A model generated the notes under the pieces. The model did not search any database and was not told the DNA's origin. It worked only from the letters and a program-made list of their open reading frames with translations. Made by a program: the position numbers and the translations under genes. From assembly GCA_012523305.1 (NCBI GenBank), contig JAAYIV010000019.1:1-62984 (forward strand): DNA of 62,984 nucleotides, written 5' to 3'. This document shows, piece by piece, positions 35,809-49,546 of the stretch (positions are counted from its first letter, which is position 1; every line of letters begins with the position of its first letter). The DNA is from Spirochaetales bacterium. GTDB lineage: Bacteria; Spirochaetota; Spirochaetia; Sphaerochaetales; Sphaerochaetaceae.

Positions 35809-36117
35809 TCACTGCTTAATCTCTACATCCACGCCTGCGGGAAGCTCAAGCTTCATCAGGGCATCCATGACTTTTGATGTAGGATCCAGAATGTCGATCA
35901 ACCTCTTGTGAGTTCTCATCTCGAACTGTTCGCGAGACTTTTTGTTGACAAAGGGCGACCTCAGAACCGTATATTTGTTGATTCGAGTCGGTAAGGGTAC
36001 GGGGCCGGAGACTTTGGCACCAGCCTTCACCACTGTCTGCACGATAGCCTTTGCGCTCTGCTCAACAAGCTCAATGTCAAAACCCCTCAGCCGTACCCGG
36101 ATTCTATCCTTAGCCAT
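35809..36117 (-). CDS. rpsJ: 30S ribosomal protein S10 (NusE)
   Basis: 102 residues from the second of two adjacent ATGs (36117). This ATG has a GGAGG site 4 nt upstream and gives the standard start [14 protein letters not shown]. The frame reads back into the terminator hairpin, which is not coding. S10 is a 30S head protein and, as NusE, joins NusB in antitermination. It is the first gene of the S10 block, 63 bp after tuf, and directly follows a terminator-like hairpin. Confidence 0.97.
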
Positions 36118-36126
36118 CATTCCTCC

Positions 36127-36169
36127 AAAAAACGGGTCTTGCCCGCTACACTTTTGGTGCGGGCAAGAC
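36127..36169 (-). terminator. Attenuator/terminator hairpin between tuf and rpsJ
   Basis: The minus strand has GTCTTGCCCGC (36159-36169), a 12-nt loop and GCGGGCAAGAC (36136-36146). This is a perfect 11-bp stem followed by CCG and then six T (36127-36132), which run directly into the GGAGG of rpsJ. No promoter can fit between hairpin and gene, so all rpsJ transcription must read through it. This suggests regulated attenuation or partial termination. Confidence 0.75.
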
Positions 36170-36180
36170 ATTCGTCATAA

Positions 36181-37371
36181 TTACTCAATAATCTCGACTA
36201 CTTGGCCTGAAGCAACAGTCTTGCCACCTTCGCGAATAGCGAAGCGGAGACCTTTGTCCATGGCTACCGGGTGGATCAATTCAATCTTCAATTCGGTGTT
36301 ATCACCAGGAAGCACCATCTGCTTTTCTTCAGGAAGGGTCACAGTTCCGGTAATATCGGTGGTTCTGAAATAGAACTGAGGTCTGTATCCACTGAAGAAC
36401 GGAGAGTGACGACCACCTTCCTCTTTGCTCAACACATACACGGTACCAAGGAATTTGGCATGGGGAGTAATTGTCTTGGGCTTTGCAAGAACCTGGCCGC
36501 GGACAACTTCTTTCTTGTCAACACCACGCAACAAAGCTCCGATATTATCACCAGCCTGACCTTCATCAAGCAACTTGTTGAACATTTCAACACCAGTACA
36601 AACGGTGTCTTTTGTTTCTTTGATACCAACGATTGAAACAGGATCGTTTACGTGGATAATACCGCGTTCAACCCTACCGGTAACAACTGTTCCACGACCA
36701 GAGATGGAGAAAATATCTTCAATCGGCATGAGGAATGGCTTGTCAACAGCACGTTCTGGAAGCGGAATATAGGTATCCATCGCATCAAGCAGGTCTTGGA
36801 TGCATTTGTTCTTCTCGGAATCATCCGGATGCTCCAAAGCTTCATAGGCAGACCCTTTGACAACAGGTGCGTTTGCTCCGTCAAAGTTAAAGAACGAGAG
36901 CAAGTCTCTCATCTCTTCTTCAACGAGCTCGATGAGATCGGGATCGTCAACCATATCAGTCTTATTAATGAAGACAACAATAGCGGGTACTCCTACCTGA
37001 CGTGCAAGAAGGATGTGTTCCCTGGTTTGTGCCATCGCGCCGTCGGTTGCCGCAACTACGATAATCGCACCGTCCATCTGGGCTGCACCGGTAATCATAT
37101 TCTTGATGTAGTCAGCGTGTCCCGGGCAGTCAACGTGAGCATAGTGGCGATGAGCGCTCTGATACTCAACGTGTCTGGTATTAATGGTGATACCACGAGC
37201 TTTTTCTTCGGGCGCATTGTCGATATCATCATACTTCAAGACTTTGTCACCGAATGAGCGTCCGCAATACATTGAAATCGCTGCGGTGAGGGTAGTCTTG
37301 CCATGGTCGATGTGACCGATGGTTCCAACGTTCACATGTGGCTTTGTTCTTGAAAATTTTTCTTTAGCCAT
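36181..37371 (-). CDS. tuf: Elongation factor Tu
   Basis: 396 residues. GTPase motifs are [37 protein letters not shown] and NKTDMVDD, followed by domains 2 and 3 ending [14 protein letters not shown]. The P-loop has Ile where most bacteria have Val (GHVDHGKT), a conservative change. EF-Tu carries aminoacyl-tRNA to the ribosome. It heads the S10-spc-alpha unit: it has its own strong promoter after the rpsG terminator and a leader of about 270 nt. fusA, its usual neighbour, is not here. Confidence 0.98.
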
Positions 37372-37642
37372 CAGTTCCTCCTTGTGACTCTCTCAAAGGT
37401 CACAAACTTCATTTCTATAAAGGCAAGACGCCTTTACCTTCAAATGGAGAGACAAACGGCATACTGTTGGACAGGGATAAGGGAAGGATCCAGAGGTCGA
37501 ATACCGACTTGAGTACACGACATAGTACAGATTTCAAAAGTCTGTAAACTGGAACCACCTTACCACCCGTGCTTTTCCCAGCAGGATGATTGGTTTGGCT
37601 CTTACATCTTCAATAGCACAAGAGGCCTTCTCTGAAGACGCC
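37372..37642 (-). promoter_or_regulatory. Long structured 5' leader of tuf
   Basis: Almost 400 bp (37372-37768) separate rpsG from tuf, and no open frame is convincing. About 270 nt of this should be transcribed as the tuf leader. It contains TAAAGGC-GTCTT-GCCTTTA (perfect 7-bp hairpin near 37419-37437) and TTGTGAC-N10-GTCACAA (near 37381-37405), whose 3' arm abuts the AGGAGG of tuf. The 11-mer AAAGGCGTCTT occurs twice, at 37425-37435 and 37635-37645. No known riboswitch is recognised. Confidence 0.55.
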
Positions 37643-37648
37643 TTTGCC

Positions 37649-37677
37649 ACTATAGTGACTTTGACAAAATGTGTCAA
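37649..37677 (-). promoter_or_regulatory. Promoter of tuf and the S10-spc-alpha operon
   Basis: The minus strand has a perfect TTGACA (37672-37677), a 17-bp spacer and TATAGT (37649-37654). The -35 box is one arm of an inverted repeat TTGACA-N5-TGTCAA (37661-37677). It follows the rpsG terminator by about 35 bp. Confidence 0.85.
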
Positions 37678-48988: not shown

Positions 48989-49546
48989 CTAAATTTTCTC
49001 AACTTGGAGGAAATCAACCTCAACCGGGGTAGATCGACCAAAAATTCCAACAAGGACCCGGAGGCGTCCCTTTTCCAAATTGACTTCTTCAATAGTACCG
49101 GTGAATGTTTCAAACGGCCCTTCAATAATCTTAACCTGTTCTCCAGCACTGAATGTTTGCTTGGGTCGCAGGGTTTTTTCAGTCTTGATTTCTCCGGTTT
49201 TTTGGAGAATACCCTTCAATTCATCGCTGCTCAACGGAGTCGGTTTTTTGCCATCCAACGAACCCACGAATCCGGTGACTCCCTGGATTCGTTTGATTTG
49301 AGAACAAAAGGTTTCCCATTGATAATCGGGAAGATCCATCTCGACAAGAATATAACTGGGAAGTATTTTCCGCTTAACGGTTTTTTTGACACCATCTTTG
49401 ACTTCGACTACTTCTTCGGTAGGAACTTTGATATCGAACACGACCTCAGCAAACTGGGGGTCACTTTCAATAATCTTGCGGATAGTTTTTTCTATTTTGT
49501 TCTCATACCCTGAATACGTATGGACGACATACCAGCCTTTCGCCAT
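48989..49546 (-). CDS. nusG: Transcription termination/antitermination protein NusG
   Basis: 185 residues. The NGN domain starts AKGWYVVHTYSGYENKIEKTI and has PSYILVEMDLPDYQWETFCSQIKRIQGVTGFVG. The C-terminal KOW domain has SAGEQVKIIEGPFETFTGTIEEVNLEKGRLRVLVGIFGRSTPVEVDFLQVEKI. It binds RNA polymerase and couples it to Rho or ribosomal S10. It lies 8 bp after secE in the conserved secE-nusG-rplK order. Confidence 0.98.
   Translation of the reverse strand: MAKGWYVVHTYSGYENKIEKTIRKIIESDPQFAEVVFDIKVPTEEVVEVKDGVKKTVKRKILPSYILVEMDLPDYQWETFCSQIKRIQGVTGFVGSLDGKKPTPLSSDELKGILQKTGEIKTEKTLRPKQTFSAGEQVKIIEGPFETFTGTIEEVNLEKGRLRVLVGIFGRSTPVEVDFLQVEKI

Follow-up and report, generated by a model that had tools for sequence, protein, structure and literature searches.

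A stem-loop fused to the rpsJ ribosome binding site

The window, by which we mean the whole stretch of 62,984 nucleotides analysed here, comes from a bacterium of the Sphaerochaetaceae and carries on its minus strand the sole copy of tuf in the genome (EF-Tu, 36181..37371). It is followed by a block of about 28 genes, mostly encoding ribosomal proteins, of which rpsJ (S10, 35809..36117) is the first. The gap of 63 nt between tuf and rpsJ holds a single hairpin. Read along the minus strand from 36169 to 36115, the element consists of 11 perfect pairs, CCG, six T and the GGAGG of rpsJ, whose ATG is at 36120 or 36117. The stem-loop (36136..36169) is built from a 5′ arm GTCTTGCCCGC (36169-36159) and a 3′ arm GCGGGCAAGAC (36146-36136) joined by the 12-nt loop ACCAAAAGTGTA (between 36159 and 36146), and 11 nt separate it from the tuf stop codon, which ends at 36181. 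Downstream of the stem come a 3-nt spacer CCG (36133..36135; consensus CYG in an alignment of 49 distinct gaps), the T6 run TTTTTT (36127..36132) and, fused to it, the Shine-Dalgarno (SD) sequence GGAGG (36122..36126), which is invariant in the family alignment. An 81-nt stretch folded with a minimum free energy of -27.2 kcal/mol (z = -3.85), a value equalled by none of 200 shuffles. The initial annotation had described a perfect, GC-rich stem of 11 bp with six T at the GGAGG of rpsJ, and this is what lies there apart from the CCG: the T-run does not come straight after the stem, as had been stated, but 3 nt beyond it, which affects the claim that the element is a terminator.

Other readings of the gap were considered and rejected. 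A leader peptide starting at the conserved AATG of the stem base is contradicted by the reading frames, which differ among relatives, one entering rpsJ and others stopping at the rpsJ start. A pseudoknot between CCAAAA of the loop and UUUUGG of the T-SD box is not kept by the loops of relatives, and additional CG-YG pairs beside the stem are broken in several of them. Sequestration of the SD was discarded because the hairpin does not include the SD, for which no conserved pairing partner was observed, and a repeat element because the genome contains no second strong copy.

The hairpin is conserved and covaries in the Sphaerochaetaceae

S10 was found in 109 of 139 Sphaerochaetaceae genomes, and the tuf-rpsJ gap could be read at 106 loci (97 distinct gaps). 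According to the initial annotation, absence from close relatives would speak against the element and an alignment should be examined for covariation. All 106 loci carry the hairpin, with stems of 8-16 bp that begin 8-16 nt past the tuf stop codon, in gaps of 57-83 nt with one exception. Among the 96 distinct gaps of normal length, 94 folded with z below -2 (the median was about -4, in the family as in other Spirochaetia), and a run of five or more T fused to GGAG was likewise present in 94.

The element occurs in two forms. The first, found in 49 distinct gaps and including the window, reads CGAAT-GTCTTGCC...GGCAAGRC-CYG-T6-GGAGGAA. The nucleotides after its stem are C at +1 (42/49), mostly C or T at +2 and G at +3 (45/49), and a distance of exactly 3 nt between stem and T-run was seen at 52 of the 106 family loci. 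In the second form, GATTTTTGGAGATTTTT, the distance from the stem is variable. When 38 distinct sequences of the first form were aligned, 11 of 13 stem pairs had changes on both sides, which was reached in 0 of 500 shuffles, and 93.9% of the cells paired, with shuffles and slid registers far below; the stem thus covaries strongly. The constant parts are the stem base, CYG and T6-GGAG, and the upper stem and apical loop vary freely. We also considered whether the element reaches into coding sequence, and rejected this, because synonymous diversity in the first rpsJ codons (0.49) and the last tuf codons (0.47) equals that of the remainder; the element is therefore confined to the gap. These results indicate that the tuf-rpsJ hairpin is real and non-accidental, and that it has been kept in evolution while its sequence changed.

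The T6-Shine-Dalgarno box is specific to rpsJ

The genome of the window has a single copy of the box GTTTTTTGGAGGA, at rpsJ, and the same holds for each of five relatives with the first form. For the second form, three genomes were tested, and each has one copy of the corresponding box, TTTTTGGAGATTTTT. Only one of the 65 genes called in the window, rpsJ, is preceded by a T5-SD. In first-form genomes, a covariance model of the element gave one strong match per genome (66-76 bits), the next reaching at most about 23 bits. The possibility that T6-GGAGG is a general habit of ribosome binding sites was therefore rejected, since the box is practically confined to rpsJ in these genomes. A similar architecture was noticed on contig C128 of the same genome (L149:345-420), where a hairpin CCGTCAG...CTGACGG is followed by CAA, T7, GGAGG and a GTG start; the translation of the gene after it resembles, by eye, the start of IspH.

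The hairpin extends through the Spirochaetia

Other Spirochaetia were sampled from Treponema, Alkalispirochaeta, Borreliella and uncultured lines, giving 80 distinct gaps. A stem was kept in 74 of them, with unrelated sequences, and just 24 had a T-run near the stem end; in most of the class the stem ends close to the SD. Among the exceptions were a 1.1-Mb genome (L132) and Borrelia-like lines with small genomes, where hairpins are weak. One spirochaete family has, in place of the element, a long tuf-rpsJ gap of 593 nt (L115) or 436-442 nt (L223, L226), and in another member (L118) tuf and rpsJ lie apart; terminator-like and promoter-like sequences at these four loci give the appearance of a separate rpsJ promoter region, an alternative arrangement. 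Because the hairpin is kept class-wide and the T-run is mostly absent outside the family, the sequences show the class-wide feature to be the hairpin, the T6-SD box being an addition of the Sphaerochaetaceae. Outside the Spirochaetia the gap is often under 15 nt and has no hairpin, and tuf is single-copy there as well, so the hairpin is unnecessary for EF-Tu excess in general. Our literature search found no paper on a tuf-rpsJ hairpin, and the main text of a study of Borrelia 3′ ends (PMC10319736) does not mention tuf or rpsJ.

tuf and the S10-spc-alpha genes as a probable single transcription unit

A sigma-70-like promoter, TTGACA-17-TATAGT (11 of 12 positions; 37649..37677, minus strand), is predicted about 277 nt upstream of tuf, beyond which a terminator-like hairpin follows rpsG (37739-37711). 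Of 43 family members, 40 have a candidate promoter scoring at least 9 of 12 in the interval 235-301 nt ahead of tuf; these are sequence matches, not mapped starts. On the downstream side, only 9 nt lie between the stem and the SD, which bears out the earlier statement that no promoter fits between the hairpin and rpsJ. Taken together, the upstream promoter and the lack of downstream room suggest that tuf and the S10-spc-alpha genes most simply form one transcription unit, and they support the view that the whole cluster is transcribed through the hairpin.

EF-Tu is required in several-fold excess over ribosomes, and E. coli and similar bacteria rely on two tuf genes and on separate operons. 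Since tuf is single-copy here, a device giving it an excess makes sense. The initial annotation had proposed a switch that lets tuf be made in excess over the ribosomal proteins, analogous to the L4 switch of E. coli. The first part of this proposal gains from the single tuf gene and the conserved, covarying element, and the analogy with L4 is not supported, as set out in the Discussion.

Terminator or pause

In a terminator score modelled on that of d'Aubenton-Carafa, the tuf-rpsJ hairpin obtained -39.5. By this measure, 24% of the gaps in the family score above 0, as do 23-32% of those in other Spirochaetia. The rpsG-tuf gap directly upstream scores +4. For calibration we used 340 kb of a Sphaerochaetaceae relative, in which a hairpin above 0 was present in 5 of 25 convergent pairs and 7 of 66 co-directional gaps, and in which clear canonical terminators have the T-run at distance 0. 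Of the 44 co-directional gaps in this sequence that measure 30-100 nt, 10 hold a strong hairpin. A stable GC-rich stem-loop, as an intrinsic terminator has, is present at tuf-rpsJ (11 perfect bp, z -3.85, covariation). Its T-run begins at +4 instead of within 0-2 nt of the stem, and a scan of the window that allowed 0-2 nt between stem and T-run did not list it. The low score, the 3-nt spacing and the loss of the T-run from most other Spirochaetia argue against a plain intrinsic terminator, and the first two of these would make the hairpin a weak one at best. In the relative used above (G091, L150-L166), many hairpins between convergent genes lack a T-run, and 3′-end formation in the Sphaerochaetaceae may be unusual.

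The geometry also fits a hairpin-stabilised pause that would place the RNA 3′ end on the SD. As in pauses of the NusA/NusG type, the hairpin lies about 11 nt before a plausible pause point and the non-template strand is T-rich (PMC12288461). The NusG pause of Bacillus subtilis has TTNTTT at -11 to -6 and a hairpin 11-12 nt from the 3′ end (PMC12288461), whereas placing T6 at -11 to -6 would put the hairpin 14 nt away here, and the second family form has mostly T5 after GA instead of TTNTTT. In an alignment of the window NusG with PDB chain 8ehq_G, which we take to be B. subtilis NusG, the contact residues N81 and T82 correspond to R and I. A NusG-dependent pause of the B. subtilis type finds support neither in the spacing nor in these residues. 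The window NusG (48989-49546, minus strand) also has a 4-residue insertion adjoining this position.

A conserved structured RNA in the tuf leader

The 277-nt tuf leader contains a family-conserved arrangement AGAGCCAAACC-R-hairpin-A-AGGUGGUUCCAG, followed by CTATGTCG and CGACCTCTGGA. Within its structured part (37602-37489, minus strand) CCAAACC...AGGUGG is invariant (relatives L253-L292). The core, GCC-AA-ACC ... AGGUGGU with a variable hairpin (37550..37602), matched the leader model with E = 2.5e-14, and the family-specific 3′ part, CCAG ... CTATGTCG ... CGACCTCTGGA (37489..37549), was defined by alignment and consensus fold. In the core, 8 of 15 pairs had double changes, against 0 of 500 shuffles. 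The pairing CC-AA-ACC / GGU-GG, with its two-A bulge and variable hairpin, recurs in other Spirochaetia. The model matched roughly 100-240 nt upstream of tuf in 14 of 24 Spirochaetia genomes tested, among them lines outside the training set of the model (G254, G234, G258, G209, G156), and all matches with E below 1e-4 were at tuf.

Further along the leader, nearly all relatives examined carry a hairpin TAAAGGC(GTCTT)GCCTTTA (37436-37417, minus strand). Directly before tuf, another hairpin, TTGTGAC ... GTCACAA GGAGG (37382..37405, with the SD to 37377), is joined to an SD; it is kept in the relatives examined.

No Rfam match above the gathering score was found at the tuf-rpsJ hairpin, in the tuf leader of the window or in those of six relatives, and our literature search revealed no paper on a tuf leader RNA. 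A 23S rRNA, sought in the assembly of the window's genome for rRNA mimicry by the leader, gave no match there. As judged by covariation and model matches, the tuf leader contains a new class-wide structured RNA. If feedback control of the unit exists, the tuf leader would be a likelier site for it than the rpsJ hairpin, which shifts the search for ribosomal-protein feedback in the Spirochaetia away from the leader of rpsJ and towards that of tuf.

Discussion

We propose, with a probability of about one half, that the hairpin is a boundary element that lowers the flow of mRNA from tuf into the S10-spc-alpha genes and so sets their relative output. With a single transcription unit and a single tuf gene, such a divider is the most economical function. 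In the Sphaerochaetaceae, the hairpin would fold while RNA polymerase makes CYG-T6-GGAGG, and the polymerase would pause. A fraction would stop, producing a tuf mRNA whose 3′ end is protected by the hairpin, and the remainder would read through into rpsJ. With less message continuing past tuf, a single tuf gene could supply EF-Tu in several-fold excess over any one ribosomal protein. Where the T-run is missing, as it often is in other Spirochaetia, the main effect of the hairpin may be pausing or protection of a processed tuf 3′ end.

The basis of this proposal is the structure, its covariation and conservation, the uniqueness of the box, the single tuf gene, the upstream promoter and the absence of room for a downstream one; that the polymerase or the 3′ end responds to the hairpin, how strongly it does so, and that EF-Tu dosage profits, we infer. 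In its favour, the conserved stem base, CYG and T6-GGAG make up the very stretch that the polymerase would sense. Against it stand the low score and displaced T-run, the rarity of the T-run in other Spirochaetia, the frequency of comparable hairpins in the family (10/44 gaps) and the bacteria outside the class that do without. Partial-readthrough intrinsic terminators within operons offer a likeness, as they too combine a GC-rich hairpin and T-run between co-transcribed genes needed in differing amounts. The element differs from them in that a conserved CYG separates the T-run from the stem, the T-run is joined to the ribosome binding site of the following gene, and loss of the T-run elsewhere in the class has not entailed loss of the hairpin. 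A terminator-shaped element is in this sense different from a terminator: selection keeps the hairpin class-wide, and the T-run travels with the ribosome binding site.

The retention of the hairpin without a T-run would also be expected from a purely post-transcriptional role, which is possible but on balance improbable. A cleavage close to the boundary of tuf and rpsJ would divide the message, and the hairpin would shield tuf from 3′-to-5′ exonucleases, so that tuf mRNA outlives the ribosomal-protein part, the U-rich box being part of an unstructured, strong ribosome binding site. In the second form (TGATTTTTGGAGATTTTT) the T-GGAG box indeed holds a constant position with respect to rpsJ but not to the stem, which would follow if the T-run were a component of the ribosome binding site and not of a terminator. 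However, exonuclease protection needs neither the exact 3-nt spacing at 52 of 106 loci nor the conserved CYG.

The same position, with the stem starting shortly after the tuf stop codon in the family (8-16 nt) and ending near the SD in most of the class, would suit a translational insulator that blocks ribosomes from sliding or re-initiating from tuf onto rpsJ and keeps the rpsJ start unstructured, giving the two genes independent rates. We regard this as unlikely, because it leaves the fixed CYG-T6 of the family unexplained and many co-directional genes have no such hairpin.

We also regard as unlikely a regulated attenuator on the model of the E. coli S10 operon, where L4 or another product of the cluster would stop transcription. 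The E. coli S10 leader is about 170 nt long, with several hairpins, binds L4 and has rpsJ as its first gene. The tuf-rpsJ hairpin resembles it in lying directly before rpsJ, where it could lower expression of the ribosomal-protein cluster, and the conserved sequence at and beside the base of its stem (CGAAU...CYG) might serve for recognition. In contrast to that leader, however, it consists of a single simple hairpin, the gap is 63 nt long, and the unit around it opens with tuf, judging by the promoters predicted ahead of that gene in 40 of 43 relatives; its apical loop and upper stem vary freely, the flanking codons are unconstrained, no alternative second structure was seen in the 57-83 nt available, and Rfam has no match for it. 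A better candidate for a feedback RNA is found upstream of tuf, where the unit begins. Among other known leaders, the rimP-leader, with a GGGc...gCCC motif in a terminator stem upstream of rimP-nusA-infB (Naville and Gautheret 2010, PMC2965389), is likewise a short, conserved, terminator-like hairpin of a translation/transcription operon, with conserved stem sequence and no larger aptamer. The present stem lacks this motif and reads GUCUUGCC...GGCAAGRC; it is internal to its unit, before rpsJ, and has a weaker terminator score. The S10 r-leader of Firmicutes and Clostridia, noted in PMC7247131, whose main text does not mention spirochaetes, likewise represents a conserved leader RNA associated with that operon; no Rfam match turned up for the window or for the leaders upstream of tuf in six relatives. 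Finally, an ordinary intercistronic hairpin of no specific function is hardly credible, for although comparable hairpins occur in 10 of 44 co-directional gaps of a relative, near-universal retention with compensatory changes would not be expected without selection.

More speculatively, and with clear doubt, EF-Tu and nearly all S10-spc-alpha ribosomal proteins of the Spirochaetia might be made from one message under an undescribed two-part RNA control, in which total output is set by a structured sensor RNA in the leader of tuf, whose ligand may be a ribosomal protein or EF-Tu, and the covarying hairpin with the rpsJ-specific T6-SD box sets a fixed ratio of EF-Tu to ribosomal proteins. If the hairpin is indeed a divider between tuf and the cluster, it would provide a simple answer to how the ratio of EF-Tu to ribosomal proteins is set.
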